Shown here one piece after another: positions 9,061-52,739 of a stretch of DNA of 64,000 nt. Source of the stretch: Nymphaea colorata (Eukaryota > Streptophyta > Magnoliopsida > Nymphaeales > Nymphaeaceae); assembly GCF_008831285.2 (NCBI RefSeq), contig NC_045140.1:12274505-12338504 (forward strand), in the 5' to 3' direction. The notes beneath the pieces were generated by a model, which saw nothing but the letters and a program-made list of their open reading frames with translations, had not been told where the DNA came from and did no database searches. A program made the translations under genes and the position numbers. Position 1 is the stretch's first letter; each line of letters begins with the position of its first letter.

Positions 9061-9304
9061 TCATGTCAAGGCATGCACGTTAGCTCAGAGCCGAGAGAGA
9101 GAGAGAGAGCGTGACACATCTTCGTCCAAGAAGGAAAACCTGTAGGAGATACATTGGCCACACAGAGGTGATGAAAACCCTCTCCTTTAAGAGAGGAACA
9201 AGATTTCTTCACCAGAAAAAAGGAAGAAACCACGGCCTTCAGATCATCATCAGGAAGAGTCCAAAGAGAGAATACCACCTTTACTAGGTGGAAAAGGTGA
9301 AGAC

Positions 9305-10756
9305 ATGCTGGTCGTGGGGATCATATTGTTCGTACTTCTTCTGCTAGGTTCTGCTCTATTAGGTCCTAAAACATGTGGTTACAAGCCACCATCTCTCCCC
9401 ATTCTTGGCTGCTTGATTTCCTTCTCCAAGAACCGTCAGCGTCTCCTTCAGTGGTATACTGAACTTCTTTCTCAATCACCAACTGGGACGATACTCGTTG
9501 ACCGCCTTGGTTCTAACCTGCTTATAATCACAGTCAACCCTGCCAATGTTGAGCACATGCTCAAGACCCGGTTTTATAACTATCCCAAGGGGAGACCCTT
9601 CACTGATATCCTCGAGGACCTGTTAGGACGAGGGATATTTAACGTTGACGGGGAGCTATGGCGCCGACAGAGGAGAGCACTGAGCCATGTGTTTACGACC
9701 AGGTCGCTGAGAGACCTAGTGCTTAGAACCGTGGAGGTAGAAGCCCATCAACGCTTGCTACCCCTCCTGCAATCTGCCAACATGAACGGGATCATTATCG
9801 ACCTCCAAGACGTGCTGAGCCGTTTCACTTTCGATACCGTCTGTAAGGTCTCTTTCGACATGGACCCTTTGTGCCTTCACTCCACCATGCCTGTAAGTTG
9901 TCTTGTGCATGCATTCGATATCGCAACACAGATCAGTGCTAAAAGGGCAACGGAGCCACTGCCCTTGATATGGAAGGCCAAACGCGCCATGAACATGGGA
10001 TCCGAGCGCAGGCTTAGAGAAGCAATTGATGCAGTGCACGAGTCGGTCATGGAGATGATTCAGAGGAAGAGAAACTCAGGTGGGGATGATCTGCTCTCGA
10101 GAATTTTGACACTCAGCGACAAAGATGAAGAGTTTGCCAGAGATATGGTGATAAGCTTCCTCCTAGCCGGAAGGGACACGGTATCAGCGGCTCTTACTTG
10201 GTTCTTCTGGCTTCTTTGTGACCACCCAGATGTACAACAAAAGGTAGTCGAAGAGATCAGAAGCAGACATGAAGTTCTTGACTTTAAAGGCTTGCAGGAA
10301 CTGAAATTTCTGAAAGCCTGCATCTGCGAAAGCATGAGACTTTATCCACCCGTGCCATGGGATTCAAAACATGCAAAAAATGATGATGTCCTTCCGGATG
10401 GTACTCTTGTTCCAAAAGGAAGTCGGGTGACCTACTTTCCTTATGGGATGGGAAGAATGGAGAATTTGTGGGGAATGGATTGTTTGGAATTCCGCCCCGA
10501 GAGATGGATGTCATCTGAAACTACAAATATAGGAGACGACTTCGTATCAGTGTACAAGTTCCCAGTTTTTCAGGCAGGGCCACGGCAGTGCCTAGGAAAG
10601 GAAATGGCGTTGATGGAGATGAAGTATATTGCTGCGTTTATACTGAGCAGGTTTGAGCTCAGGCCTGTCAATGATCAGAAACCCCAGTTTGTACCATTCT
10701 TAACTGCTCGAATGGAGGGTGGGTTTCACGTTCTGGTTGGAAAAAGTAAATCATAG
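9305..10756 (+). CDS. cytochrome P450, CYP94 family-like (intact, intronless)
   Basis: Haem-thiolate monooxygenase, 483 residues, uninterrupted. In order: hydrophobic membrane anchor (about 1-20), a Pro-rich hinge PPSLPILG (28-35), the C-helix WRRQRR (119-124), the I-helix oxygen-activation motif AGRDT (288-292), the K-helix ExxR (E342 to R345), FRPERW (396-401), and the haem loop FQAGPRQCLG (422-431) with Cys429 as the axial ligand. All essential P450 residues are present, and the length fits CYP86-clan enzymes. The absence of introns, the GIFNVDGELW region and AGPRxCLGKEMA point to CYP94. Known CYP94 enzymes omega-hydroxylate fatty acids or oxidise jasmonoyl-isoleucine at the endoplasmic reticulum. 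Which substrate this one uses cannot be read from sequence. The start was chosen because the anchor begins immediately after it, and an upstream extension has no supporting homology. The residue after the conserved Thr292 is Val instead of the common Thr/Ser. Confidence 0.93.
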   Translation: MLVVGIILFVLLLLGSALLGPKTCGYKPPSLPILGCLISFSKNRQRLLQWYTELLSQSPTGTILVDRLGSNLLIITVNPANVEHMLKTRFYNYPKGRPFTDILEDLLGRGIFNVDGELWRRQRRALSHVFTTRSLRDLVLRTVEVEAHQRLLPLLQSANMNGIIIDLQDVLSRFTFDTVCKVSFDMDPLCLHSTMPVSCLVHAFDIATQISAKRATEPLPLIWKAKRAMNMGSERRLREAIDAVHESVMEMIQRKRNSGGDDLLSRILTLSDKDEEFARDMVISFLLAGRDTVSAALTWFFWLLCDHPDVQQKVVEEIRSRHEVLDFKGLQELKFLKACICESMRLYPPVPWDSKHAKNDDVLPDGTLVPKGSRVTYFPYGMGRMENLWGMDCLEFRPERWMSSETTNIGDDFVSVYKFPVFQAGPRQCLGKEMALMEMKYIAAFILSRFELRPVNDQKPQFVPFLTARMEGGFHVLVGKSKS

Positions 10757-13329: not shown

Positions 13330-16300
13330 AATTTTTGGATTTGGTTTCAGATCTAAATCTAAGTCATAGACCCTTAGGCCCAAGTATTAAGGTGTTATGG
13401 TCATTTTCCAAAATACCATTAATTTCTTATTCAAAATTCTGAAAATATCCTTGATTTTTCAAAGATATCGTTTAATTATCCAAAATGCCATTCTTTTTCT
13501 AAATGTCCTTCGTTTTTTCAAAAAGACCCTCGTTTAACAAAAAATTATCAAAATACCTTTTCTCTCTCCATGGAGCCCATTGCTGACATGGCAGGCCGTA
13601 CCTTACACTGCCCAGGGCAGGCCTGCCTACGGCATTCCTTCAGAGCCTGGACAGGCCTAGTTGAACCGGCGGGCCTAGGCTGGGCCTAGTTATACAAAAC
13701 ATAAGAGAGAAAGTTTCGGGCAGTTTGCTCCATGTCACGGTCAAACCCCTAGCCAACTCATTTTTGAATTGATTTGACCTTATTAATATAAATAAAAAAA
13801 TAAGCCACTAATTAATGTTTAACTACACTTTTAAAAAAATGATGATAATGCCCTTGGGCCTCTTCCCTCTATAAATACTCTTCGTTTCTCCTTCTAACAC
13901 ATTAATCCACAGCCTCTTGAGCCCTCTCTTTCCTCATCAAACCTTATTGTTCTTCTCCTTCAATCTCTTTCTCTTTTCCTCTTGCTCTCATTTTTCTGAA
14001 CTTCAAGCCACCATTCCTAGTAAGTGGAGATCTTGGAGGAGTTCGTAGAGGACTTGAAGAGTTCATCCCTAATCCACTCAAGCCACCATCAGTCCCTTCT
14101 GCTTGAAAGAGCCCATGAGCCGTCTCTACACTATATCATCTCTAATTCAAAGGACTTGAAAAGTTTGAAAGCTTGCTTTTACAAAACATGACAAAATGAA
14201 ACCATGTTTTGTAGAACAAGTAATTTAAAAAATACGTTTTCCAATCACGTTCCTCAAATAAGTTGAAAACTTTGATTTTCAAAACTACCTTGAAATACAA
14301 ATTCTCTTGGAAACTTCAGATATAATGACAACATTGGACACCTATAAATACCTCAAATTTGCACAAGTACAAATAACCATTGTACCATTTGCAAGGAGGT
14401 TTAAAATTGGTTTCTAGAAATTAGAGTTCAAAGGTAAGGGTTGTTCATTGAACCGGGTTTGAGTGGATATCATAACATTGAGCTAACCTAGATTAAGATC
14501 ACCTAGTGTGCCACTGCTGTAAAATAACAATTTTATGCCTGAAATCCATTACTCTAATTTTGAAACTCTGACAATTGCATAACATTTGAACAATTAGGTT
14601 AATTCTCAACTTTACACGAGCTCAAAAGTCATTAGAGCCAGCATATTGGGTTTCCTTAGTTCAGAATAAGCTCACTCTAACTTGATCAGATCATTGAGAC
14701 CATCCACATATCATTTCTTTATCAGCAAAATCTTGTTATTCCTTCCACATATAAAATTCTCTGAATCTAGGACATGCCAGCTTAATCCAAGCTGGGATCA
14801 TATTATTCCTTGCTCAATCAAAGTATTTCAGACTTTAGTTTAAGTTCAATCATCTAGATTCAAGTTGGTTTTCCATTTTATAGATGCACTAAAGGTTGTC
14901 CAGTTTTAGACATCTCCTTTCAGTGTAGCTCAATCTTACGAAAACTTGGTTTTGGTGGAAAATTTGAGGGTTGACTCATGACATGACAGAAAAATTAAAG
15001 AACTTGAAAACACTAAAAAAAAGTAGCTACACATTAAATAATGCATGTGTAAAGTCAAGTAGAAATTATGTTTTCTGCAAAAAGTTAGAGAAAATAGATC
15101 CACACAAAACACTCAAGCAACGGGTCAAATCAACATCAAAGTGTATGAAAATTTAGTTGAAGGAACTAAACACGTACAAAAACAACTAGTATTTGTAGAC
15201 TCAATTTGGACCTCTAGATTTATAGACTAAGCCAATTAATCTAGGAAAAGTTTAGGACTTATGTCACAAACCTAAGATAGAAAACTCAGTTTTTGAAATT
15301 TTTGTGACTATGTGGGTCAGATCGTAATGAAAATATACGAAAATTGATAAACACAAGGTAAACACATACACAAAGCTATGCTTTTTGTTGGATTTCAAAA
15401 AGGATTTTTGGTTTGAGAGATATATAGTCATTTGAACTTAGGAAAAATTAGGCTTACGACAGCAAGTCCAATTTTCATCTAACTCAAGATTTAACAACTC
15501 TTAAACCAGATTTCAATGAAAATCCCCAAATGTGATGAAATAAAATGTGAATCAAACAACTAATCATGTTGAACTTTAAAATAAAACTACAAAATGATAA
15601 AATAGTAATTAAATGCATGAATAAAATGAAACAAAATGTGAAAGTTATGCATGAAATCAAAGAACTATGTGCATGAGCATGTGGATGTGATCTACATAAA
15701 AGAAGAAAACTAATGGTGACCAATGAGGTGTGGAAGAATAGGAGGATGCTTACATGAAGTCCATGGGGGAGAGAAAGAGGGAGGAGAGAAAGAAGGAGAG
15801 AGAGGCGTGAAACACCTTAGAAAATAGACTTGCCTTTTCCTTTCTTCTTCTTCCTTCTTTTCTCCTTGCTAGGCCACATGCAAACCTTTTAAAACACCTT
15901 AGAAAAAACCTTGGAATTCATGCCAACAGGGGAAAATATAAGTTAGAAAAACAATAAAAGGAACTCAATAAACAATTGAAAAAGGAGAGATCGTACATTG
16001 GAATTTGAGTCAAAGAGATAGAATAGAGGTTGAACGACCCCAGCCCCTTTTTATAATGATTTTGGCTGAGTTTCAGCTAATTATAACCAATTAGAATTTT
16101 AGAAAATAAAAAACAAGGATTAATGAGGTGTGAGACAAACAAATGGTCATAATCTGCCTAGAGACCTAATGATCTGGTAATTAATTAAAATTTTTAGTAA
16201 AATATAGTGGCTGAAAAGTGGTGGCAGCACTCTAGGTTTTCCTTTCTGAAAATAATGAAAAACCCTTGGCTAGTGTGAGATGGATGGCTAGGATTGATCT

Positions 16301-18030
16301 TATGCAAGATGGATCAATTCTGGATTTAAAATTTGATTCTTGATTTGGATTCTGATATGAAGTTTGAGTATGGATTTAGAGTTTGGATTTAGATCAAAGG
16401 TTTATATCATGCTCTGGATTGAGGAAAATGATTTTGAATATTAGATATGAGATCCATATCTAAAACAATGCAGATTATGGATCCAGATCATAGATTTGGA
16501 GTTTAAATTTAGGATAGGAGATCCATGCTCAGCCTAGCTTCCATGGATTCAAGCTCAAGGCTAAGTTGGAGCACGTCCAGACCAAGCTTAGATCAACTAT
16601 GTTTAGTTTTAGGTCAAATTGAGTTCAATCTTGAGCTGAGCTGAATTCAAGGTGGGTTTAGACGCTGCATGAGCTATATTGGCCAAAAGATGGTTTTTAC
16701 CCTAGCGCAAAAATTATGTTCTGCCTGTCAGGGTGGAGATCAGACCATGCAAGATCATAGAAATGTAAAAATATGTGCTCACATAAAATTTCATAAAAAA
16801 GTGACTTGATTTGCCCTTGAAAAATCAAAATTTTCAAAATGAGCTCTAAATTTTAAATGTCGAGGGCAAAATGAGAAATAGTGACTTTGAATTTGTTTGT
16901 GAAAAATAGATGTACTATTACTCTCTTAGGGTGATGGTAATTCCTTTGGTGTAGTTTGATTTAAAATTAGACTTTTGGATTGATTATAAATTAGCTTTGA
17001 AGCCACAAGTGATGATGCCCGAATTCATACAAGAGAATGCACTCCATGACAGTGATGAATTGTATGATTTGGAGGTACTCTATCTAAACCAAAGCTGATA
17101 ATATTATGTAGAGATGTTTTTGATTACACTGATATGAAGAAATCACCAATTTCATTTCTGGATTGTTAGAATTTCAGCTCACATATATGAGCTATCACTA
17201 AGAGCTAGAGACACGTAGATGAAATAAGTGCAAATAGAAAATGAACCAGATTCTACGTGAAATTAATCCAAATTGAGCTAAAGAGAGTCAGTTCTGATTC
17301 TAAAGAACATGTTTCTAGTTCAGCACAATCTAACTAACCCCAGATTGATAGAATTTTAGCTGAGACAATTAAAATGAAGGAGAGAATGGGACTTTTATGT
17401 TATGGCAACTCTCTTGGAACTAAGAAAACCTTAACGTGAGCTCCATGGGTACTGATAATATGTCAGTGCTAAATTATGTGAATCATTGAGTTAGTGGGCT
17501 CATTTCAGTTGAAATGCATGAAAATTGAAGGTTTATGATGAGAATTTTGCCCTAGAAATTGAGGGTTTCACTAAAAATAGTCTGCTAACAATTAAAAAAA
17601 TCTGAAAATGATGTTGGTTACGGGTGATCTGGTGTGAAGAAATTGCTGAAAAACAACAAAAATGAATCATTTTGAGTTAAATTTGACTGAATCTGAGCTG
17701 AAAAATGAGTTATGGAAGCTCATTGTGATTTGCAGATATGAGAATTTTTATAATTGAAATGGTAAAGCATAATTCTCAAGAGTTCCAAAGCAATTTCATG
17801 AAAATTCAACAAAATTTGGCCAAAATGAAGAGTCTTTAGGGGCGGAATGGTCATTTGTGTAACTAGTGACTGGTTGGGTAGCAAGGGTCCAACTGTCTGG
17901 CATTGGTATTATAAATTCTGCATCCATGTGACCTTTGGACTTTACATTTGAAAATTGTTTAAGAAAATCTACTCATTAGGAGGGGTAAAATAATCATTTT
18001 GGCAATAAAAAAATTAGGGTGGTTATAACA
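13330..18030. mobile_element. non-coding repeat DNA ending in an LTR-like terminus
   Basis: Almost 4.7 kb without a recognisable protein. The right edge reads AGGGTGGTTATAACA and stops exactly where a LINE coding fragment begins (18031). That is how the 3' end of a long LTR would look if it had inserted into the LINE. A purine-rich GAGAGAAAGAGGGAGGAG tract (about 15765-15810) lies inside. No matching left end or target-site duplication could be confirmed, so the element type stays open. Confidence 0.3.
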
Positions 18031-18530
18031 AAGAAACCTTCGCAAGGAAGACCTCATCTCCCCATACCTTTTACGCATTGTGATGAAGGTCCAAGCGACG
18101 ATGTTTAATCAGAGCATCAAAGGCATGACCATCAAGATCCCAAGGACAACAAGAAGATTTAAATGCCTGCCCTACTCTCTTTTGTGAATGATGTTCTAAT
18201 TTTCAAAAAGGTGGAGTTGGCGTCTATCAATTCCATAAAGGTTACCTTAAATGATTTTTTACTCCAAGGCTGGTCTTCATGTCAATAACAATAAATCTAT
18301 CATTATCTCGATTAACTCTAGTGACCATGTTACATGTCATATCTCTCACACCACTAATAGGAGAATTGGTAGCTCGCGATGAAGTACCTTGATCTGGCTC
18401 TTTTTTTTGGTAACTTGTGACGGGACTGGTTCAATAAATTGATCGCCAAGGTGGAAATGATTGTTAGATGGAAGATCCCTATGCTTTCTTGTAAAAACAT
18501 GCAGAATATGCCTACTTACTCATGTCATAA
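18031..18530 (+). pseudogene. LINE-1-type reverse transcriptase relic
   Basis: Frames broken by stops and shifts follow the middle of a plant LINE reverse transcriptase. The first is a (R)KEDLISPYLLRIVMK segment, corresponding to the QGDPLSPYLF region. Then comes NDVLIFKKVE, corresponding to the catalytic ADDxLIF box with Ala-Asp replaced by Val-Asn. It is followed by an AGLHVNNNKS segment, and by FNKLIAKVEM...WKIPMLSC, corresponding to the thumb. The 5' part of the element and the endonuclease are missing. The abrupt start at 18031 next to an LTR-like end suggests truncation by insertion. Confidence 0.7.
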
Positions 18531-18639
18531 GCCAAACTATTATAATTTGGTCGGTGCTTTCAGATTATCAGGAGGCACTATAATTTGGTTTTTTATAGTA
18601 GCGCATGTGAACAAGGAGAAATCAAATTGATATTTATTC

Positions 18640-20138
18640 TTATCCAATTCATCATAGATCCATGCAAAGCAACAACTAAGTCTAGAATGAAGCATGTGAA
18701 CTAGAACAAGTAGACCCGAAGTTCGGTTTCTATTGGGTTTGATGTAAAGGACTTGGACTTCGAGTTGGGGAGATCAAATTCAAATCCAAACAATTGATCT
18801 TGATTCCAAACAACTTACTTTAGTTATTCATGATTCATGTAAAATCTTGATTCTATGTTCAAAGTAAGGATGACTAGAAACATCTGAAATATCTTGATCT
18901 GAAATTGATGGTTAGATTCATAATCTGAAGCTTGAAATCTAAGATCCAATGAGCCTGATTCTTCATCCATGATATGATTATTTTAGATCCAAACTCAATC
19001 ATATTAAACCCAAATATGGTATTTGACTTATTTGATAAGTTCTCGATCCAAAATCCAATACTTAAGATCCAAACTTTGAATGGCTTCAAATTAGGTCGGC
19101 CAAAGGGTTTGACTTGAGACCTAGCCTAACTATACTGGTTCTCATTTACGGCAAATCCTAGCTATAGATGGCTATGTTTTAAATATGTGTTGAAGGCTTC
19201 TATACTTGGTCTTGATAGAGTATAGAAGTAGGCTTGAAATAGTTGCCCAAGAACCTGATTTTAAGGTCTAGGAACATTGGTCAAGTGCTCTAAAACTAGT
19301 CTAAGCTAAGTCTTAGAGGACTTGACATGTGTTAACCTAGGTTTGGACTTTGAGTATGTATGACCTAGGGTTTTGAAAAATAAGTTAAAAGAGCTTTGCT
19401 ATGGAATCTCTTAAAGAAAACTATGTTTTTGAAAGTGTACCTGTACTTGAGATCAAATTTGAGTTTAGAATTTCACACGCCAGGCCTACTACCTTAGGGA
19501 TCCTACTGAGCTAGCTTGGCTTAATCTTCAACAAATAGTGCAAGTGTGTGAGATGTGATTCATATGCACATTTGAACCATTCATGAATTGCATAGTTAAT
19601 TCTTAAATTATAAAACAAATATGTATCCTCAATGCATGTTTTGAAATCAAAAGTTAGAATGAAAGATAAGAATGCAGGAATTAAAAAAGGGACGAAATAT
19701 AGAGGCATTCATGCCTACCATTAAAAGAGGAAATTAAATTATAATTTATAAAAATAAATAAACAAACCTAAAACATATTAAAGAAAATGAAGCAAACCTA
19801 TTGGCTAAAGCAGAAAAAAACTAACCTACGTAGGTAGAAAAAAAAAAACCTAAGCATGCTCCTAAAAATAAACAAGAAAAGATAGCACTAACACGCAAAT
19901 AAAAAAAAGAAAAGAGGAGGAAAAAAAATTACTTGAAGTTGACTGAACCGCTTCCATGACCCGTACATGCATTCATATTAAATCTAAGAATTAACCCTTG
20001 CATTGATCTATGATGATATGTATCATGAACTATGACACTTAATTCAAGCATCTCCAATTTCTGCTCCAATTTCTGAAGATCTACTTAGATTTTTAAAATT
20101 CTCTGATTTTCAAAACTAAGGATTCTTTTTTCATTTAA
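18640..20138. other. intergenic repeat-derived DNA
   Basis: No coding region. 18760-19080 contains another tract of the GATCCAAATC-type phrase. 19740-19930 is very A-rich on the + strand. Nothing else recognisable. Confidence 0.5.
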
Positions 20139-20204
20139 GCACCTAAATATTTTGAGATGTGTCGCACCAGCACCGACACCGGCACCCCGCACCTTGGTGA
20201 CATA
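20139..20204. mobile_element. 66-bp hAT 3'-end fragment
   Basis: Nearly identical to the last 66 bp (24621-24686) of the hAT element to its right, including the GCACC-rich subterminal motifs and the CACCTTGGTGACATA terminus. It is followed by the same GCTCACCAA flank and PPR sequence. It must be a copy of the transposon/host junction made after insertion, by local duplication. Confidence 0.85.
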
Positions 20205-20371
20205 GCTCACCAAGTATCTCTGCAAGAAGCTACTTCGCACCCTCAAGGTGACCCTTTTTACACAATGCATGAACAAGTATGTTGCAAGTTACCTTATTGG
20301 GTCTGATCCCATTCTTAACCATAGAAAACAAGTGAACAATGGCATTGTCAACACCATTAGATCGACAATAA
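20205..20371 (-). pseudogene. PPR protein gene fragment (duplicated part)
   Basis: On the minus strand this reads NGVDNAIVHLFSMVKNGIRP then NKVTCNILVHALCKKGHLEG, one complete PPR repeat (helix A starting NKVTCNILVHALCKKG) plus part of the preceding one. PPR proteins bind RNA in plastids or mitochondria. A near copy lies at 24687-24855. It is joined at 20371/20372, out of normal order, to a piece that should lie downstream of it. No functional protein can come from this arrangement. Confidence 0.8.
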
Positions 20372-20826
20372 CCAGACAAGAGGATTCGGGATAATAAAAT
20401 CATCTATCATCTTGTGGAAGCAAACTTGTGCTAAATTAACATTTCCTTGCAAGCATAGTCTATGAGTAACCAGCTTGTATGAAACGTGATCAGGAGCAAC
20501 CCCCATGATCAGCATATCATTGCCAATATTACAAGCATCAACTAATTTCCCTTCTCTACACAGTCCACAAATGAAACTGTTATACGTTATTACATCAGGG
20601 CAGTAGCCTTTTTTCTACATTTCACCAAAAACTCCAAATGCAAGCCTCGTGTTGCAGCTTGAGAAAAATCCATTAATAAGGACATTGTATGCTACAACAT
20701 CGACAATGGTATCCTCTCTTGTCATTTGTTCCCATATTTCAGATGCCTGGATCAGATCCCCTGTTTTGAAACACCCATTGATAAGTATGGTTGAAGTGAT
20801 CAAATCGAAGGTTTCATGCTCACCAA
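20372..20826 (-). pseudogene. PPR protein gene fragment (3' side of the hAT insertion)
   Basis: One continuous minus-strand frame with a single TAG stop (20615-20617) encodes about four PPR repeats. They include TFDLITSTILINGCFKTGDL, VDVVAYNVLINGFFSS, PDVITYNSFICGLCREGKL and PDHVSYKLVTHRLCLQGNV, ending in DDFIIPNPLVW. The ~35-residue spacing and the xxYNxLIxGxC pattern are characteristic of P-type PPR proteins. The upstream edge abuts the hAT element at its target-site copy, so before insertion this was continuous with the sequence now at 24687-24860. Confidence 0.85.
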
Positions 20827-21079
20827 CTAAGTCACCTGGGTGCGCCATTTCTGGACCCGCACCCGCTCAACGTGATGCAGGTGCGGGTGCAACCCTGATT
20901 CACACCCAAGCTAGTTAAACGCGAGTCAGGTGTGGTCAGCTGCACCCGACTAAAATCGTTTTTTTTTTATGCACACCTTACTCACCTCAAACACGAGTCG
21001 GGTGCGGTCAAACAACACCATGTCCTTTTCCATCCATTTTTTGGGTTTTTTTTTAAATTTTTAACAAATAGGGCATGAA

Positions 21080-21460
21080 CAACGCTTCTCTCTCTCTACT
21101 CTACGACTCTCTCTCTACTCTATGACTCTCTCTCTTTGTGCTGTGATGCTGATCTCTCTCTCTGCGCCATGACCGGCATCCCCTGCTCTCCGACCGGCGA
21201 CCGGTGATCAAAGAACTCTGTCCGGCGACCGGTGATCAAAGAACTCCATTCGGCGGCCGGCATCCACTGCTCTCTCAGTCTTCGATTTTTACCTCCATCC
21301 TCTCTATTCTTTCACATGTTTCCACTTATTTTTCACTCACATCTGCACTGCATTTTAGGAAGGTAAACTCTCTCTCTCTCTTTGCAGCGTATTTTTCTTT
21401 TTATTTTTTGATTCTGATATCATGCTCTTTGCAGCGTATTTTTCTTTCCACTTCTTTTTA
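21080..21460. repeat. short tandem repeats in the hAT leader
   Basis: CT-rich runs (ACTCTCTCTCTACTCTA repeated), then a 28-bp unit containing GGCGACCGGTGATCAAAG repeated directly (about 21190-21245). After that, two copies of CTCTTTGCAGCGTATTTTTC lie about 57 bp apart (21380-21445). They lie between the 5' terminus and the transposase gene. Confidence 0.75.
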
Positions 21461-22437
21461 TTATGGGATTCTGATATTCTCATCTCGTCTAGTGCAGCAG
21501 TGTGTATTTTTCTCCGTGTTAGTGTGTTGTTCTCTATTTTAGTGTGATGTTTAGGTTTCTGGAATAGTTATGCAACCTCATGGTTTGTTTATGTGGTCGG
21601 TCGAGAGAGGTTTTCTTAGAGAGACTTCAGATTATTAGGTGGCTTTCTACTATTCTGTTAGTTGTGATTCTTCTGAAATTTTCTTAAGTTCTATTCTTGC
21701 TGGAGTGGTAAATTGCCATGTTCTTCTCTAGCTTTTTAGATTCTCTGACTGGCTGATACTATAGTAAACTGTGCATACTACATGCCCATATCTTGTATAA
21801 CAAAATCATGGTTGCATGCTGAGTTGTCTAAATCACTAGCCGGACACAAGTCAGTCATGGTCTAAAGCTAGTTGATGATGAATGGTAAACTAACAAAACC
21901 AAATATTTAACAGTAGATAAGCTAGTTCGTAGCTTTACTCTATGTTCTCCCTTGATATGTTGATCTGTTTTTATAGATAGTTTTCCCCTCTTCCATGGCT
22001 TTGCTCAAGAAAAGTAATGAAATGTATGTGCACTAAAATGTTTTCACAGCTTTGAAGTTCTTTTTTTCCTTCTATTGGTAAGGACTGTGTGAGGAGAAAG
22101 TGCTTTACATCTTCATTTTTCTTTATTTTATCGGCATCATCATGGTGGATGAAGGCTTATGATTAGAGTATGCAGACTATCTATTCTTAAAGTTGAACTA
22201 AAATTGTGCAACTAACCCATTAAATTTGTTATATTTGAAATTTTTCATTTTGAAATTTGAAGGTAAAACCATAAAAGATGGCAAACTGAAGAAAAGGAAA
22301 AGAAGTTGTTTCAGATTCTCTTGACTCCTGCAATAGGTTCTTCATCTAGTGTAAATGTGAATGAAGGTGATGTTTCAAAGTTTTCTACACTACTTGGTGA
22401 AGTATATGCATCCGAAGAACAACCACTATGAAAAGAA

Positions 22438-24367
22438 ATGAAAACAGTCACTAAAGATGTAGACAGTGGCAGTGGAAATGTGCATTTTGTATGTCGATAT
22501 TGTGAAGTTACATTTGTAGGATCTTACACAAGAATGAAGACACATTTGTTGAAATTGTCAGGTTTTGGAATTCGAGGATGTAAAAGTGTTTCCACAGAAA
22601 AAGCTCAAGAGTTGAAGAAGTTGGAAGATCGTGCTGATGCAATCCACAACAAGATGAAAACAAGTATTATTATGACAAATCCTAAAAGACAGAAAAAGAA
22701 AGACTATAGAGACATGTTTTGATTCTTACTAAAGAGCAGAAATAGATAAAGCGGCTGTTAAGTTTTTTTATTATAGCTGCATTCCTTTTAATGTAGCTAG
22801 AATTTCATATTGGAAGAAGTATAGTACTATGCTTACAAATAATAAATTATCAGGATATATACCTCCTGGTTTAGAAAAGTTGCGAACATCACTCTTCAGG
22901 ATTAAGCGAGGTTGAGCCAAGTTTACAAAAAAAAAGTTTAAATGGAACATGACTGGGGTATCGATTGCTTCTGATGGGTGGGCAGACATTCAAAGACGTC
23001 CACTAATTAATTTCATTGCCATTGCACGTGATGAACCAATATTTTTGAAGGTAGATTGATGCATCTAGAGAATACAAAGATGTCGAATATTTGAAGCAAT
23101 TATTTGTATAAGCCATCAAGGAGGTTGGTCCTGATAAAGTGGTGCAGCTCATTACAGACAATGTTGTTGTATACAAAAGTGCTAGACTTAGTTTGATGTA
23201 TGATTTTCCACATATTTTTTGGACTCCATGTATTGCACATACTTTGAATTTAGCATTGAAGGATTTTGATTTGAGATTGTTAAAGGTTGCAGAGACACGA
23301 TTTGCTTCAATAATTGTCATGTTGAAAAGAATTCAAAGAGTGTGAGATGCACTTATTCAAATGGTGTTTAGTAGAGAGTGGAGCTTTTATCGTGTCGAAG
23401 ATGAGACTAAAGCCCAAATTATTAAAAACCTTATTGTTGAAGATAAATGGTGGGATGAAATTGCATATTTTTTGGATTTTACAGAGCCAATTTGGTGCAT
23501 GTTGAGAGCTGTTGATAAAGATGAGCCTATGCTTCATAAAGTTTACAAAATGTGGGACGGTATGATTGAACAAATTCAGTGTATAGTTTTTAAGAAAGAA
23601 AAAAGGACATTGTACTTGATAATTCAGAGTTCTTTGATCGCATACATACAATATTAGTTCAAACATGGGATAAGAGAAATACTCCCTTGCATTGCATGGC
23701 TCATTCTTTAAATCCCAAATATTGCACTAAAAAATGTATTGAAGGAGCTCCTGGATGTGTTACTCCAAATCTAGATAATGAGTTAAACACTCAAGGAATG
23801 TCATGTATGGAAAAACCTTTTACAAATTCTTATACTAGAAGACAAGCTATTTGTGAATATAACAAGTTTTCTTTAAGATATTTTAGTTTTAAAGGCACAA
23901 CAGCAGTAAGAGAAGATGATGGCATGAGTCCTTTTGATTGGTGGGTGTCCTATGGATCAGAAATGCCCGTGCTTCAGAAACTTGCTTTGAGGTTACTATC
24001 ACAACTACATCATCATGTTGTGAAAGAAATTGAAGCTTATATGGTCATATACACAACATTAAAATGAACAAGCTCACTAGTCAATGTGTAGAGGACTTGG
24101 TTTATATGCATTCTAATTTCCGTCCTCTTTCAAGGAAAAAAAATACAAATATTTCTTTATTTTATTGTTTTGCTTTGCTCAATTTCTTATGTTGTATTAG
24201 ATTTTTCATATTTTGGTGGTAAATACTTTTTATTGTTTAACTTTCATCTTTAATAAAATGCGGTTTTGATCCTGCTATTCCTTCTGACGAGTTTGATGAT
24301 GATGATATCGTTGAAAGCATTGAAGAAAATCAAGATATTGGTGGAAGTAGAACTGGAACGCAACTCT
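22438..24367 (+). pseudogene. hAT transposase (BED finger / DUF659 / dimerisation), inactivated
   Basis: Cut-and-paste transposase of the hAT superfamily. In order: a BED-type zinc finger (CRYCEVTF...MKTHLL...GC, about 22487-22585), then the DUF659 catalytic region with GVSIASDGWADIQRRPLINF (about 22957-23018) and FPHIFWTPCIAHTLNLALKD. Next come VEDKWWDEIAYFLDFTEPI, a C-terminal hAT dimerisation stretch SPFDWWVSYGSEMPVLQKLA (about 23929-23990), and a terminal acidic exon SDEFDDDDIVESIEENQD (about 24280-24340). The frame is cut by many stops (for example 22720, 23343) and shifts. Family members have introns, so some gaps may be introns, but in-frame stops within conserved blocks show it is dead. 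Confidence 0.88.
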
Positions 24368-24539
24368 GATCGATGATGTAATATGTATTGATGTATGAAC
24401 TATGAAATACGACTGTATGAACTGTGATTCTGTGAACTCGAGTATATTTCTTGTTAAATGTTGAATTGATGATTGATAATGATATCATGATTAGCAAATT
24501 GTAATTTTGACCTTGTTACTTAATAATTTTGTGGTTTCA

Positions 24540-24602
24540 TATATATTATATTATATATTATTATTACTATAATAAATTAATAATAGTAATAATAATAATA
24601 AA
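24540..24602. repeat. AT-rich TAATAATA microsatellite
   Basis: ATATATTATATTATATATTA followed by AATAATAGTAATAATAATAA-type runs inside the 3' part of the hAT element. This stretch is absent from the duplicated end at 20139-20204. Confidence 0.8.
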
Positions 24603-24686
24603 TACTCTCACCACACCGCCGCACCTAAATTTTTTGAAATGTGTCGCACCAGCACCGACCCCGGCACCCCGCACCTTGGTGACATA

Positions 24687-24860
24687 GCTCACCAAGTATC
24701 TCTGTAAGAAGCTACTTTGCACCCTCAAGGAGACCCTTTTTACACAATGCATGAACAAGTATGTTGCAAGTTACCTTATTGGGTCTGATCTCATTCTTAA
24801 CCATAGAAAACAAGAGAACAATGGCATTGTCAACACCATTATATCGACAATAACCATCAT
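24687..24860 (-). pseudogene. PPR protein gene fragment (5' side of the hAT insertion)
   Basis: The minus strand reads GVDNAIVLLFSMVKNEIRPN and KVTCNILVHALCKKGLLEGA, almost the same as 20205-20371. It ends at the hAT target-site copy and, before the insertion, led straight into the repeats now at 20826-20372. On its other side (24856-24895) the minus-strand frame continues as IGKMLQND. The DNA then switches to a + strand PPR copy, marking an inversion breakpoint. Confidence 0.85.
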
Positions 24861-24892
24861 TTTGTAACATTTTTCCTATAAAACAATGGCAA

Positions 24893-25530
24893 GGTAATTT
24901 AGCACAAGTTTGCTTCCACAAGATGATAGATGATTTTATTATCCCGAATCCTCTTGTCTGGAATATCCTGATTTATGGATATGGTAGAAATGGTGAGTTA
25001 GGTCATGCTATAAGGATAGGAGATTGGATGTATGAGTTTGGGTATGCACCAAATGTTTTCACATACAATGCGTTGATCTATGCATACGTAAGGGGACATA
25101 ATTTTCAAGAAGCATTTATGTTGAAGCAGAAAATGTTATTTAAGGGTTGTTTTCTAGATGTTGTGACCTACAACCTATTAATATACTGAGTATGTAGTAT
25201 TGGTCATTTTTGTTTTGCTTTCCAGTAGTATGATGAAATGAGAAGAAGAGGCTGCAAACCTGATATTTATACCTACACTGAAATGATTCGTGGTCTTTGT
25301 GTTCATGGGAAAGTAGAAGAAGCTGAAGAAATTTTTAGGAAGATCCAGAAATATGGTGTAACTACTGACCATGTCCCCTTTCATATCCTCACCAAGAGGT
25401 ATTCAGAATAAAAGAACCAACAAAAGCATATCTTCTATATGAGCAGATGAAAGCAAAAGGACTTGTGAGCCAGTATTCTACCTACTATATACTCATTTCT
25501 GGATGAAGGAAGCATGTGAAGTACTGAAGG
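24893..25530 (+). pseudogene. PPR protein gene, inverted 3' portion
   Basis: The + strand encodes the C-terminal repeats of the same PPR protein: NPLVWNILIYGYGRNGELG, PNVFTYNALIYAYVRGHNF, LDVVTYNLLIY, PDIYTYTEMIRGLCVHGKVE and DHVPFHILTKRYSE. The first ~66 bp (24896-24961) are also present in opposite orientation at 20372-20437. Stops interrupt the frame at 25187-25189 and 25226-25228, and a further stop plus shift follows RYSE near 25409. Later, KAYLLYEQMKAKGLVSQYST can be read in a shifted frame. The pieces fit one original gene that was broken, inverted and abandoned. Confidence 0.85.
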
Positions 25531-25549
25531 TATTAATTTCTAGGTCTGT

Positions 25550-27640
25550 AGAGCAGTAAAGTTAATTGGCTTACTGATGCGTAATGCATTGACGATTTGA
25601 GTCTCAGACATATAACAAACCATCGCTGAAAGAATTAACTGGAAAATTGTTCATATTTTAGCAATTTTCCATGATTGTCAAAGGGCAAAAAGTTCAGCTG
25701 ATTGGGCTTCAATGCCTAGCTTCCCTTCGTGTGGCAGGTTTTGTAGCATGGCAACCTTGGCGACAAAGGGAACACCAAAGGGTATCATTTTGAACAGTTC
25801 ATTTGGGGTTAAAGATTGTCATACAAGAGTGATGATCCCACAACACAAAATTTGGTCATTCCAGCGAACTCCATGTTAGAATGTACAGGAATGCAATTTT
25901 TTGATTCAGTATGGATAAAAGATCCTCCTATGTTATAGAACTCTGTGTCAGAATGAATGTATGTTGCCCACTGTCTTTCTCATATTTTAATTGTATTTGC
26001 TCATTTGCTATTTTTACTGTGTGTGACCTACTTCTCAAGCATGTCCACCTAATGCTGCTTGTTGAATTTCTGACATTGGTTCATGCTCGTCTTAAAAAAC
26101 TACCAAACAGTATGTCAATTCTAACTTCTAAAGGTCTAAGCTGTCTAAGTTGCATGCTTTGTGAAATCTTTGAGATTGCCTAGTTGCTTGTTCACAACTT
26201 TGCTTGCCAAAACTTTTTTTTAGTTCCTTCTTCTAGTGACACCATGTTATTTCGTCTAGTGTATTTGTTAGACACTGACATGAGCATCCACCTTTTTTTA
26301 GGCAGATTGGGGTTAGGCAGATGCCTACCAGATGATGTCAAGAGATGCACCTCAATATTGAATTTTTGACATCTTTAACTTTGAAGATCATAACTCCCTG
26401 CCCTAACTAGGTGGACGGACCTCTTGTTGGCTACAAGGGTTTATTTTTGAGGAGCTTTATTTGTCAAAGGCTCTTCTCTCATACTCTGGTGTTTTTGTGA
26501 CGTGTATAAGCCTCCACTGTAATATGATTGCTTACCTTTTCTTTGCCTTTGTGAATACACAACCCAAATTTATGATATTTTTCCATGCCTGTTTCTTTCT
26601 TCTTTTCCAGTTTTCTTTTCTCTCCTCTTTTTTGCAAACTGTAAGTGTAATAGATGGCCGTGCAAATACTTGCATCAAAAGTTTAGGGTATATGTGATTG
26701 CTTGGAGTGTGCTTGCCTGGTGTATGTTCACACTAGGGTGTGCTTTCACCCTAATATTGGAGGAAAGTCAGAACTTCCCTCTCTGTCTTTCTTTTGTCAG
26801 TTTCAAGTTTGAAACTTTTATGTCTGTGAAGTCAGTCCTCGACTTCCTCACCCATGTGTTTGATTTCCTTGTATATGATGCAAACTTTATATGAACTCAA
26901 GGTTATTAAAGTGATCAAAACCTGGCGTTTTGGTGGAAATGCAAAATATATCCCTCTTGTGGTGGTTTTGAGGTCAATGTAAAGGCAGCAGCGAGAAAAG
27001 GAAGAACCAAAGGTTCTTTCGTTCTCTCTTTGTGGTTTATACATTGTAAGATACTGCGAGCTTTGAGCTTCACCCCAAAAGCATGGACAAGCTGAAGTTC
27101 TGTAATTCTTTTTTCTTCTAAAGTAGAAGAGGAAGCCATGTATTGAATTTTCATCGCATTAAACCGCATGTTTCCCTCCCTATCCCAAGACGTAAAATGA
27201 GGTCATTTGCAACCAGTTTGAGTTAAGCCAGCTATACTTACTGTTGCTTTGTTATCAATGTAAGATTCAAATCTTGACCCCTTAAACCAAAACAATCCTC
27301 ACCCATGAGTGTGGCAGGTATTTGCTTTGTGCAGCCTCAGACCTAAGGGCAAGTTTGATTACCCATATTTCTTTTACTTCGGCCAATGTCTAAAAGGGTG
27401 GACTGCAATGATGTATCTCCTACTGTTACTGTTGAGGTTTCTTACCCTTTTTATGTAATTCTCATTTCCCTATAGAAGGATCATATTTTTTGGGCAAGTT
27501 CTTTCAAGTAAGTGATGAGTTTCTTAATAGAAAAGTGTTATCTTCCTTGCCTAGAAAGTGTGTCTCCCACCAGTTAACCACTCTTCTAGAGCAATTCCCT
27601 TTAACGGTCTTCATTGTAGTGGTGAAAGATTTTGAATGAA
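25550..27640. other. intergenic DNA, no supported gene
   Basis: Short open frames only, none recognisable. 26400-26900 is T-rich on the + strand with several hydrophobic chance frames. Confidence 0.5.
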
Positions 27641-29960
27641 AAACAGCAGTGTGAGATTTTCTCACCATGGATGTAGGTGGTATAGCCGAACCACGTAAGT
27701 TTGGTGTTCTTGTGTGATTGCTTGCTGGATCTCCTTTGTGAAGATAATCTGTGACATGGTATCAAAGCATGGTTACCTCAAGCAAGTGCAAGTTTCATCC
27801 CTTTCCTTTTGTTCATGGTTGAATCTGAAAATCTTCAGTCTATTGCAAACGATGTTACCCTAGAATGAAGGAATGGGAGTGTCGATCAGAATAATTTTCT
27901 ACACATTGCTAGCAAACCTTTTTCAGGGACAGATTATCTCAGTTGGCCAAAATCTGTAAAACTATTCCTATGTGGTCGAGCTAAGTTGGGGTACATCAAT
28001 GGGAAAATTAAAAAACGGGCTACTTCTGATCCTAGTTTTGAAAAGTGAGAATCAGAAGATGATACGGTCATTGGTTGGTTGTTAAGTTCAATGATTTTGG
28101 AGATTACAAGAAGTCTCATGTATACTACGATCACCCAAGAAATATGGGACAATGTAAAAGAAGTGTGTGGTATAACCTAGCTGAGTCTACGAGCTACAAC
28201 AAGAGATTCACAACTTTAAACGTGAAGGACAATCATTCAACTTATATATCGCAACATTGTGTGAAATGTTCTATGAATTGCAGCAATATTGCCCTCTGTC
28301 CGATGGCACTTCCAAGACACACTTTGAAGAAGATGAAGTTTTTAAACTCATCGCTGGTCTTGATCGGATTATGAGCAGTTTATGAGTGAAATTATAATGA
28401 CTTTAGTGCTGCCATCCTTCGATTTTGTGTACTCATTGATCCAACAAGAGCAGCCATGAAGAAAAGTTATGAATTCAATGCCCAGGGTTAAAGATGATCC
28501 ACATAAGCAAATGGCGATGCAAGCTGACATAGAAAAATCAGTTCTTCACACAGACAAATCTAGAGCTAATGAAAGCTCATATCGTGCTAAAGGGCACTTG
28601 AAGTTCAAGTGCATTAAAAGCTGAATCTGCCAATTGTGCTACCAAAGAACCATTAAAAGCGGAATCTGCCAATTCTGTGACCAAAGAGGATTTAGCGTGT
28701 TTTTTTTTTTTTTGAGCAAATGACTATGGCCAGCCTGGGCACTACCAACCTAGCATCAATTCGTCCAATGCCTGAACCATCTACAAGTACAAACAACGTA
28801 AGTGCTCAACCTCTTATGTTTCACATGCACTTGATTTAGATTGGTTTGTCGACTCTTGTGCATCAGATCACATGATGAGTCAAGATCTTGTTTTAGATTG
28901 CTTTAAGCATGCTCAATCTATTTACACTACCAATGGTTCTAGTACGACAGTCAATGGAACAAGTAAATTTCTTTAATTATAATAGTGCTTCAGATGTACT
29001 TGTTATCCTCAAAATTGCTGCTAATCTTCTATCTATTAGTAAGTTCACAAACACTTATGGTTGTTTAGCTATTTTTCTCCTAAAGATGTTCTTTTTAGGT
29101 CATGAACACAAAGAAAGTGATTGGTAGTGGCATTGAATGAGATGGTCTATATATTGTCAAGTAGCTTGGTAAAGCATTTCTAGGATCTAAGTCAAGTTTA
29201 GAATAGTCTTTTGCATTCTTGGTGGGGACAGGCACCACATAGAGTTTTAAAATCTTTAATTCCATACTTGTCTAGTGATGATTTATCTTGTGAAGCGTGT
29301 GAACTTGCAAAGTCTACTAGACTTTCCTTTAAGAGTTCAAATTCTAAATATAAGGGTTTGCTTGATCTTGTTCATTCTGATGTCTGAGGACTTGCCCTAG
29401 TTGACTCAGTGTTTGGTTTTCGATAGTATGTTACTTTTATTGATGATATGTCTTGCATGACTTGGCTATATTTATTAAAGCACAAACATGAAATAGCTTT
29501 AGTTTTTAAATGTTTTTATAATATGATAGTCACTCAGTATGACTTTCAAATTAAGTGTGCTAAGATCAGATAATGCAGGAGAGTACACATAATGAAGAAT
29601 TAATAACCTTTTTGATATTCATGGTATATGGCACAAAATTATCCTTCAAACACTCTTCAACAAATTGGCATAGCCGAGCGCAAGAATAGGCATTTACTCA
29701 ATATTGTCTGTTCTAATTTGTTTCAAATGAATGTTCCTCCTATTTTTTCTAAGCACATGTTGTTTCTGTTGCTTACTATCTTGTTAATCGCTTACCTAGT
29801 TCAAGTTTGGAAAATCAATTTTCTAGGGAAATTTTGCAAAAACAAAAAATTGTCAGTAAGTCATGTCAAGGTTTTTGGGTGCAACTGTTTCTTTGGATGG
29901 TTCTTTTTGAATCTTATAGTCCTGTGATTGTCTGAACTTCATGGTGTGCAGATGATACAC
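27640..29960 (+). mobile_element. Ty1/copia retrotransposon, truncated and decayed
   Basis: An LTR-end-like stretch (about 27650-27750, with GCCGAACCACGTAAG) is followed by TGGTATCAAAGCATGG (27758-27773), the methionine-tRNA primer-binding site typical of plant copia. Downstream frames, broken many times, follow gag (FSGTDYLSWPKSVKLFL; TQEIWDNVKE). Then come an Asp-protease neighbourhood (LDWFVDSCASDHMM near 28836), a GAG-pre-integrase/integrase core (LSCEACELAKSTRLSF, LDLVHSDV, YVTFIDDMSCMTWLYLLKHK) and GIAERKNRHLL. No reverse transcriptase, RNase H or 3' LTR is seen before 29960, so it is 3'-truncated. Confidence 0.85.
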
Positions 29961-30324
29961 AAGATGATGAACATGAAACTAAAGTTAGCCTGCAAAAGGG
30001 ATTGGATCATTTCAAGGCACACAGACACTGTTGATCTCTCTGACTTTCTATTGAACTTTTGAGATATATCAGTTGTAAGAGGATTCCATATATCAGATGC
30101 AGCTCAAAAACATCTTCTTAGCAGTTGCTAATCCTTTAATGTCATTTCTTTTGTTCATTTCAGGTATTAATAGAAAGTAATTCAATTTCAATTGAAAGAA
30201 AGATAGTTTGAAAAGTATATCAGGAGAATAGTCCTGTATTTATTGCCTCTTCCTCAATCATCTAAAATACACAGCAATTGGAGGACTTCGCAATTCTAAA
30301 TCTTCCTCCCATTAATCCTTAAAC

Positions 30325-32634: not shown

Positions 32635-32966
32635 CTCTCTCTCTCTCTCGAATATATATATATATATATATATATATAGAAGTTGGTAAATACCATACCA
32701 TTTGGGCAAGGGAGAAAAAATGACCCATTAAATTTAAGTAGAGGAAAGTTGGTAAACACCGGACGAGTTGAGTAAAGGACAAAACAAGACCCAATAAATT
32801 TAATTATTAAAGTATTTTTTGTAGCAATCCAACCATGTAAATATGATCTCAAAAGTGACATGGTGAGACATATATTAAGTTAGTATTTTTTTTTCTTTAC
32901 TTTAGTAATATTTTTTAATTATAAAAATGAAGGGCTAAAATAATTTGAACTAAAACACGGTTTATA

Positions 32967-33035
<69 letters not shown>

Positions 33036-33331
33036 AAAAATGACCCATTAAATTTAAGTGAAGGAAGGTTGGTAAACACCAGACGAGTTGAGTAAAGGAC
33101 AAAAAAAAAACCAATAAATTTAATTATTAAAGTATTTTTTGTAGCAATCCAACCATAGAAATATGATCTCAAGAGTGACATGGTGAGAGATATATTAAGT
33201 TAGTATTTTTTTATTTAGTATTTTTTTATTTACTTTAGTAATATTTTTAATTATAAAAATAAAGGGCAAAAATAATTTGAACTAAAACATGGTTTATATT
33301 ATATTATATATATATATATATATATATTTAT

Positions 33332-33369
<38 letters not shown>

Positions 33370-33665
33370 AGAAGTTGGTAAATACCATACCATTTGGCTA
33401 AGGGACAAAAAATGACCCATTAAATTTAAGTGGAGGAATGTTGGTAAATACCAGACCACTTGAGTAAAGGACCAAAAAAAACCCAATAAATTTAATTATT
33501 AAAGTATTTCTTGTAGCAATCTAACCATATAAATATGATCTCAAGAGTGACATGGTGAGAGATATATTAAGTTAGTATTTTTTTTCTTCACTTTAGTAAT
33601 ATTTTTTAATAATAAAAAATGAAGGGCTAAAATAATTTGAACTAAAACATGGTTTATATTAAATT
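32635..33665. repeat. three direct repeats separated by (TA)n(GA)n microsatellites
   Basis: Three copies of a ~290-bp unit start near 32679, 33034 and 33372. Each carries TGACCCATTAAATTTAAGT (about 32720, 33040, 33413), then GGTAAACACC- or GGTAAATACC-type text. AATAAATTTAATTATTAAAG, GTGACATGGTGAGA and AACTAAAACA(C/T)GGTTTATATT follow. A CT/TA or TA/GA microsatellite (32635-32678, 32970-33034, 33305-33371) precedes each copy. Within the array the microsatellite length varies far more than the unit, consistent with slippage. Confidence 0.88.
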
Positions 33666-33669
33666 AGTT

Positions 33670-35040
33670 TTTATAAACACATTATGAGGTTCAAATTTTG
33701 TTTCAAATAATTTTTAATATAAATTTAATCTTTACCAATTGGTCTATATATTGACAAGCCTTGTACGTGGATGATTTTTCTTTTATGTTCAGAAAACCAA
33801 GAGATTTATGAATGCACTACACGCATATCAGAATTTTCCGAATTTTTTCACATTTTCTGATCAATCCCATATTTTGAGATATAAAAATATAATTCTACTA
33901 ATTATTAGGTCATCAGATGGTGGTGGTGAGTGAGGCAGGTTTGAGAAACCGCACGACTGGTGGACGGGGAGCCCGCATCTTATACATAAGGCACGTCCTT
34001 TTCACAGTAATTTCCAGAAACTGCTTCACAATTTCCGTATGTTTAGTACGACCACTGGTTTTCTTGAAAAAGCAAGTTAGCCCAACCTTTACTGTTATTC
34101 GTCCTTAATTTTAAATAAACTTGATCCAGTAAAAAGGCAGTAACGTTTCTTTCTTGAGACCGAGTTACATATGTTTATCCGTACAAAAAGTTTCTTTACT
34201 TACTAATAATATAATGGGGTTTGTTTGTCTTACTTTAAAATGATACATAAAATTACATGCACAAAGGTGGTGCATATATCCATCTTACTTCTTTGTTCCC
34301 TTATAAAAGTGTATAAAAACTTCAAAGTGGACAACTTATTCTAAGTTTTACAGCATAGCTTATTTAACTGGAAGGGCTCGACACAATAAGAGTGGGACGC
34401 ACAAAGAAGTGTGGTTTGAAAGAGCGACTTATGTTTTATGGTATTATATCTACGACGGTAAAATGTCATAACAAATAACTTTGTATGGTGGATTGGGTCA
34501 AATCAAATGTTTCGACGTCTAAAATGACAAAAATACCATAGAAAACATAAAAAAATTTGAGCCACTCAACAATGATAAAATGACAAAATAAAAGTCATTT
34601 TTCCAGTTTGTCTTAGCAAACATGGTGACCTGGAACGCTCACCACATACTAAGCTTGACTCCGAGCCGAAGCACTCAACGGCTTTAAGGTTGCGGCTGCT
34701 ATGTTCAGAGTCTGATGATGCAAGCTAAGGAAGTCTTTTTGTTAGCTTGCGTATGGTTTTCAAGACTGTTTTCTATACTATAGTATAATAGACGAGGGAG
34801 TGGAATCAGTCCACCCTTTATGTCATTAAGACATAACCAGCTTCCGTGTTTTTGTGGTATGGAAGAGCTGTAAAAAAGAACTTCGTTTCTTATTCAATGG
34901 TAAATATAAAACAAGATTGCCCCATATCTGAGAATTCAGAGACTTTAAGCTCATTTAAGCATGTAACCAAAGCCGAGCTGTCACTGGAAACTTTCTCATA
35001 AAGAAAGCCTATAAGCCCACTTGCGAGAATCAAATTATTC
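33670..35040. other. intergenic DNA upstream of the GST gene
   Basis: No coding region is supported. This must hold the GST promoter. I see no clear cis-element other than the TATA box described next. Confidence 0.5.
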
Positions 35041-35046
35041 GATGTG

Positions 35047-35053
35047 TATAAAA
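35047..35053 (+). promoter_or_regulatory. TATA box of the GST gene
   Basis: TATAAAA lies 49 bp upstream of the GST start codon, the right spacing for a short leader. The GAGAGAGAGATGG context sits at the start codon itself. Confidence 0.55.
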
Positions 35054-35095
35054 TTCATAAATAAGTTACATTGTTCGACCCGGGGAGAGAGAGAG

Positions 35096-36756
35096 ATGGC
35101 GAAAGAGGTGAAGCTTCTTGGCTTCTGGGCAAGCGCTTATGTTGTGAGGGTGCAAATCGCGCTGAACTTCAAGGGGATAGAGTACGATTACGTAGAAGAA
35201 GACCTGAAGAAGAAGAGCGAGCTCCTGCTGCAGAGCAACCCTGTGTACAGGCAGGTGCCCGTCCTCGTCCATGCCGGGAAGCCGATACCGGAGTCGATGG
35301 TGATCCTGGAATACATTGAGGAAGCGTGGCCGGAGAAGCCGCTTCTACCTCAAGATCCCTACCAACGAGCCATGGCTCGCTTCTGGGCCAGATTCGCGGA
35401 AGAGAAGGTACACAAATCAATGCATCGCTTCCTTTCTCAACTTAATATAAATCTATATTATATATATATTCAATTTTTTTTTTTGTTCTCGGATGGTTAT
35501 TTTTTATTTTATATCTCTAAAAATTATAGTTAAATACTTTAAAACCATGGTCAATCAACAAATACACCTTTTACAATAAAAGCCGTTTTTAACAACACTA
35601 CCAAAAGAACCATATAACAAAAAAGTTACAATATATATATATATATATACATCTTGTCTGAATAATCACATACTTCATTTTTGTGATTTTATGCATACAT
35701 ATTTCTTTAATTTCCTAATAATGCGTCAAATGGATGAGAGAGAAAAATCCGATTGATAGGATGAAATTCTCCTGTGTCCACCAAAAAAAAAAAAATTATA
35801 CAAACATTTAATTTTTCCTTTTTGTTTGCATAAGGATAATCGAGAATCGGCCAAAGCAGCTCGATATGACTGACGCTGTTCTGTATTAAAGGCCGACCAA
35901 AACTGATATGACACTGATACCCATATTCTTTATAGCATTGAATTTAAGTAACATGCTATAAAAATCAATTTTCATTTATAAATTAAAAAAAAATAAAAAT
36001 GTTTGTGATCATTTTATTAAACTGTCAGAATGGGTTGAATCAGCTCACAGAAGCCAACATAGCTTTAACGGGCCCATTATGGCTATTCATTACACCACGG
36101 TTATGGTAGGGATGTCGGATCTGGTTTGGAAGCCAGATTCAACTATGAATAAACAAAAGTCTACATCACATCTGAATCTGAACCTCAATTCAAATCTGTT
36201 TTCTAACTTCATAACAACTTTTAAAACGAATCTGGATTGCATTCGGATATATTAAGAGACTTTCAAAATGGATGGACATCTATTAGTAAATTAATTTTGG
36301 ATCAAAATTTGAATCCGAATCCAAATGGATACAAGATTGGATGTCATTTCTCAAATTTGAATTCAATCCAATTTTGCAATTGGATGTTCAATTTTTTTTT
36401 CACATATGAACTTTGAAAGCAATTAACTGAATGGATGTCGATAAAAACGAGACTTATTGACATCCCAGGCTAGGGAGAGGGCTGGGTATTGGGGCTGACC
36501 TGATCCCAGCTATGTGTCTAAAAGTCGGAATACCTAACACAGTTAGAGATTCAATATATACCTGACCCGAATTAATGAGTAGGAAAACTGCAGCACGAGC
36601 GGATATCAAGTACTTATACTTTGTTATTACCATTACTTCTTGACCTTAAGTTAATTTGATAACCTTGACAAACCAAATACCATTTAAGTATCGAAGGCAT
36701 TTGGGCCATTTTTGAGCCAGAAAACGTAGCCCCGTGTTAGGGTCCAAAGATATAAC

Positions 36757-40430: not shown

Positions 40431-41187
40431 CCTTTCAATGGATCCATCAAATTTTCTCTTGATCTTAAAGACTCGTTTATTGCTAATGAGATTGTATGTT
40501 GGTGAAGGGGGAACTAGTTTTCATGTACTGTTGCATATTAGAGCTGAAGATTCTTCTTCCATCACTTTGCGACAGTGATCATCTTTGTAAACCATTTTGA
40601 AATTGGTAGAATCAACATCAACAACATGGGATGGAACTTCGGGGTTTTAAAAAGCGTGTTTGGGAACTAGTGAACATATATGATGGGTCCGGCTATGGGT
40701 TTGTGGTGATAATGGAGGTGGTTCAGGTAGGTTTTGGGCAAGTGTAGGTTTAACGTGATGTGTGATAGGCTTGAGGGAGGTGTTGGGCATGGTCATAGGA
40801 GCAGATATACTAGCTTGGGTTAGTGGTTTGGCATTCAGATCTGTGTCAATGTGAATGGTATCACTAGGAAGCGGATCAGCTTCTATAAGGTGTATTATCA
40901 TTATGAGTAAACATGTGTACATGTATAGAGATGATAGGGTTGGATGTAGAAGATGGTTGGGTGGCGGAAGGTTGTGATGGTCGTGGCAGATGAAATGGAA
41001 ATTCGTGCTTTCTGAACTGCACATGACGACTTATGTATACCCATCTAGAGTCAAGATCATAGCAAATGTAGCCTCTATGCTATCCACTGTAGCGCAAGAA
41101 TAAGCATTTCTTACTGTGAAACTGAATTTTGTGAGTATTATATGGTCGCAAATATGGATAGCACATACACTAAAAAACCTTAAGAAA

Positions 41188-52737: not shown

Positions 52738-52739
52738 AC

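Follow-up and report, generated by a model that had tools for sequence, protein, structure and literature searches.

The Ac/Ds elements of maize are known to yield inversions and inverted duplications by alternative transposition, and the reversed-ends products described for them have their breakpoints at the element termini and carry 8-bp target duplications (PMC8225341). In Drosophila, inverted duplications at inversions have been attributed to staggered breaks, as set out in accounts of the D. subobscura inversions O7 and E12 (PMC7584159, PMC4965816). The source on O7 reports a short stretch termed filler DNA at that inversion and describes O7 as no typical staggered-break inversion (PMC7584159). 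For plants, theta-mediated end joining is described as producing templated fillers, which are copied from the flank or from the opposite break end and involve short microhomology (PMC10923293). Our literature search found no paper on a hAT insertion together with an inversion in a pentatricopeptide (PPR) pseudogene.

Here we describe such a locus in a 64,000-nucleotide stretch of DNA from Nymphaea colorata (the window). We consider it probable that a single break-repair event acted on a fragment bearing a hAT element and rejoined it in inverted orientation, giving a 67-bp inverted duplication, a 236-bp templated filler and a 3-bp microhomology. The locus resembles the maize inversions in the association of a hAT element with an inversion, but here, unlike in the products described there, no breakpoint falls on a hAT terminus, and no new 8-bp target duplication is seen where the breaks occurred (PMC8225341). 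With O7 and E12 it shares duplicated sequence at the breakpoint of the inverted segment, and with O7 also a stretch resembling filler DNA; the inverted duplication that characterizes staggered breaks is present, with 67 of 67 positions in agreement. It departs from O7 and E12, as their sources present them, in the size of the segment, ~4.5 kb, and its location inside a single plant pseudogene, in the 236-bp block copied at the other junction and in the absence of the gene’s 5’ part (PMC7584159, PMC4965816). The likeness to the templated fillers described for plants lies in the short microhomology and in a patch whose apparent template is the other end of the broken fragment, whereas the enzyme at work here is one that we infer (PMC10923293). 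The features of the locus are collected in Table 1.

Table 1 Features of the rearranged PPR pseudogene and its hAT element (positions in the window).
Feature	Coordinates	Strand	Evidence or remarks
Copied block (putative templated filler): 67 bp of hAT right end, CTCACCAA and PPR segment B’	20139-20374	+	227/236 identical to 24621-24856
Junction J1, B’ joined to I1	20372-20374		3-bp overlap CCA; first B/B’ mismatch at 20375, inverted match begins at 20372
I1, left arm of inverted duplication, running on into segment A	20372-20438	-	67/67 complementary to 24895-24961
PPR pseudogene segment A, includes I1	20375-20818	-	Pfam PPR_2 1e-32 (20372-20818 searched); 35-residue register with B and C
Left target-site duplication, CTCACCAA	20819-20826		
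hAT element, decayed	20827-24687	+	3861 bp; 8-bp target duplication, terminal inverted repeats 9/10, DUF659 match
AT-rich imperfect palindrome just inside hAT right end	24549-24604		28-nt arms, 82%
Source copy of the 236-bp block	24621-24856	+	Repeat comparison
Right target-site duplication, CTCACCAA	24688-24695		
PPR pseudogene segment B	24696-24856	-	Pfam PPR_2 3.4e-15 (24688-24900 searched)
Junction zone J2, between B and inverted I1	24857-24894		38 bp
I1, right arm of inverted duplication	24895-24961	+	67/67 with left arm
PPR pseudogene segment C, 3’ part	24962-25530	+	Pfam PPR_2 1.1e-43 (24860-25560 searched); motif matches to 25369

When the pieces of the host gene are arranged as B, A, I1 and C, they give a single PPR frame, with motifs in 35-residue register, that is broken by stops. 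No intact open reading frame was found: in-frame stops occur in B, A and C, and the translations of C, which lies on the strand opposite to A and B, also reveal a frame change. The PPR gene, of the plant P type, is therefore a pseudogene, now dead. The first-pass annotation had assigned the 3’ part of the gene to the opposite strand, and this was borne out by a start at ~24895, a PPR_2 match of 1.1e-43 and the common frame and register. In segment B, the best PPR_2 stretch begins at residue 15, codon 24858-24856 (Pfam). B and its copy B’ share an in-frame TAG (‘EGAK*LL’), so this stop is older than the copying; it may have arisen either before or after the hAT insertion.

The gene is interrupted by a decayed hAT element, which has both an 8-bp target duplication, matching exactly on the two flanks (CTCACCAA), and short terminal inverted repeats. 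The termini, placed by boundary and sequence reading, are CTAAGTCACC and, reverse-complemented, CTATGTCACC, and agree at 9 of 10 bases. DUF659 was matched by the element at 3e-20 in one frame and, below the curated cut-off, at 3.2e-7 in a second (Pfam). Dimer_Tnp_hAT was matched over positions 14-45 of its 84-position profile at 6e-4, with 19.9 bits against a cut-off of 21.4, and no BED zinc finger appeared among the Pfam matches of the coding part at E up to 1. The coding part consists of short frames, possibly separated by introns, and among the plus-strand frames listed for the matched region, the longest has 157 codons. It had been proposed that target-site copies bracket a 3860-bp hAT element in a minus-strand PPR gene. 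That arrangement holds, with the length corrected to 3861 bp and the target duplication to 8 bp; a 9-bp duplication was rejected, the ninth base, G, fitting best as part of the hAT right end.

The right end of the element, together with its PPR flank, is present twice as a direct repeat. The two copies differ at 9 positions in 236 bp (Jukes-Cantor distance 0.039; BLAST E 1e-107 within the window, far beyond chance), with 3 of the differences in the 67 bp of hAT sequence and 6 in the remaining 169 bp. For the Gly-to-Glu change at least, we take the right copy to be the derived one, by the usual PPR pattern. Read in frame, B’ is recognizable as PPR by eye, and a motif at 20206-20295 was picked up by a PPR model that we derived from eight of the gene’s own motifs. 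The first-pass annotation had recognized a repeated block of 235 bp containing the hAT end and PPR sequence, which the comparison extends by one base. Since the copied block holds the hAT end, the target site and the PPR flank together, the insertion came before the duplication; this order, also proposed earlier, is well supported.

The inverted repeat likewise stands out from background, with a BLAST E of 1e-28 within the window, far beyond chance, for 67 bp, against the 66 bp (20372-20437) previously noted. Gapless extension gave 78 nt at 94%, and the match may reach ~24889 over a 6-bp gap, an extension as good being found in ~1% of random local pairs. The ends of the direct and inverted repeats are no further apart than 3 bp at 20372-20374 and 39 bp at 24856/24895. 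Under a model of uniform placement, the chances of ends this close are 0.0013 and 0.016, respectively, the thresholds having been chosen after the data were seen. Because the repeats end so near each other, the copying and the inversion are read as a single event; a duplication followed by a separate inversion, the sequence favored in the first-pass annotation, is unlikely, as both repeats meet at one junction with a 3-bp overlap. The CCA microhomology at J1 adds little to the one-event reading, since 3 or more bp are shared at 6.6% of random local junctions. No local template above chance was found for the 38 bp of J2 (the best match, of 10 bp, was reached by 132 of 300 shuffles), which counts against that reading. 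The same is true of the difference in divergence, 0/67 between the inverted arms versus 9/236 between the direct copies (for equal ages, P = 0.074). With the inverted arms identical and the direct copies 3.8% diverged, the inversion could be the younger of the two changes, or an artefact. The PPR match of B begins ~1 residue from the end of B’, and both copies may thus stop at the original broken end.

For the single-event reading, which we prefer, the following course of events is proposed. The PPR gene would have received the hAT insertion and then decayed. Two later breaks would have released the fragment B-hAT-A-I1 (now 20372-24856): one close to B on its 5’ side, the other staggered over ~67 bp at the I1/C boundary. 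Rejoining of this fragment inverted relative to C would have left I1 as an inverted duplication, while the other side would have been sealed with a 236-bp patch templated by the fragment’s own far end, comprising the hAT end, the target site and B, and joined at the 3-bp microhomology. Polymerase-theta-type end joining or replicative template switching would fit such a repair, and a transposase would not be needed. At 236 bp, however, the filler would be a long one for theta-mediated joining, a point against this course.

A distance of 17 bp separates the start of the copied block from the palindrome inside the hAT right end. Folding of the DNA at 24530-24620 gave a z of -3.56, and none of 200 shuffles was as good. 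The palindrome is therefore a plausible stalling point, which may have set where the copy stopped. A broader proposal is that the palindrome was a hot spot for breaks or stalls, that the hAT element thereby rendered its host gene fragile, and that it brought about a multi-switch inversion and templated duplication without transposase acting at the hAT ends; this strikes us as unlikely.

After a simple inversion, the 5’ part of the gene should be found left of 20139. When 16000-20138 was compared with Pfam in all six frames, no family was detected at E up to 1. The proposed course therefore calls for a deletion or a distant join as well, which also counts against it. A six-frame Pfam search of 25530-30000 likewise found no PPR, and the eight-motif model found no credible PPR motif elsewhere in the six frames of the whole window. 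This model is partly circular, its motifs being drawn from the same gene, and those motifs and B’ match it by construction. On the minus strand, it matched 20206-20800, including a 3.8-bit stretch at 20296-20385, and 24688-24855, with the outer part at -1.8 bits; on the plus strand, it matched 24896-25369, and gave one noise match at 19840-19869 (-3.5 bits).

Elsewhere the window has a plant-like content, in keeping with the PPR gene: a cytochrome P450 in a single uninterrupted frame (9191-10756, 8.5e-65), a glutathione S-transferase split into N-terminal and C-terminal pieces (35015-35533 and 37949-38410) and copia remnants. The copia-type pieces, which are degraded, occur on the plus strand at ~27.9-29.9 kb, with Retrotran_gag_3 and weak Pol_BBD and SH3_retrovirus matches, and on the minus strand at 39610-41922, where a search of two pieces gave gag_pre-integrs, with rve and RVT_2 scoring below their curated thresholds. 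A foldback or MITE-like element at 52110-52762 has inverted arms of ~260 bp, 90% alike, around a 130-bp spacer. Tandem repeats comprise three copies, 88-92% alike, of a ~300-bp unit at 32678-33666, inside which lie 66-bp repeats (32680-32803 and 33366-33495) with TA/AG microsatellites between them, and an A/T-rich array at 57959-58250 with periods of ~14-42 bp.

The first-pass annotation had suggested that aberrant hAT transposition using one end of the element could explain the whole pattern. The hAT element does lie within the rearranged segment, one of its ends is duplicated, and the inversions and inverted duplications made by Ac/Ds offer a precedent, yet the positions of the breakpoints do not support this explanation. 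None coincides with a hAT terminus: the start of the copied block is 66 bp inward from the hAT end, J1 is separated by 169 bp from the hAT end of the copy (20205) and by 454 bp from the full element, and J2 lies 170-207 bp outside. Moreover, both copies of the right end keep the original target site and PPR flank, and the target duplication of the full element is intact. We therefore regard an origin of the duplication and inversion by reversed-ends or sister-chromatid transposition as highly improbable. A stepwise origin is somewhat easier to entertain, though still unlikely. It would begin with a head-to-tail duplication or circle of B-hAT-A-I1, forming J1, continue with deletion of most of the left copy, and end with an inversion of its own, by which C came to lie on the right. 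The order of sequences at J1 is that expected for a head-to-tail join of the fragment ends, and the PPR match of the right-hand B stops within ~1 codon of the end of B’, as if from one truncated end; however, three events would have had to reuse nearly the same pair of breakpoints.

The identity of the inverted arms at 67 of 67 positions could also reflect an assembly or library artefact, with the inverted join being a fold-back chimera or a haplotype misjoin. The 9 differences in 236 bp between the direct copies are too many for a fresh artefact, although a haplotype switch could still allow them, and assemblers misjoin at long repeats, whereas J1 shares 3 bp only and J2 has 38 unmatched bp; we judge an artefact improbable. 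PPR genes are often clustered, a habit that would suit a reading of C as part of a neighboring inverted PPR paralogue, a gene separate from A and B. Paralogues would be alike along their whole length, but the DNA homology here is I1 alone, 67 bp, identical and with sharp ends, and both A-I1 and I1-C hold the same frame and 35-residue register. With homology so confined, the paralogue reading was rejected as barely credible.

The rearrangement of this PPR gene is of a known, ordinary kind, here in a dead gene, and its functional weight is small, the gene having already been broken. A hAT element within an inversion is, on its own, no evidence of alternative transposition. The locus is a readable fossil, in which the order of events can be recovered from the boundaries of the repeats.
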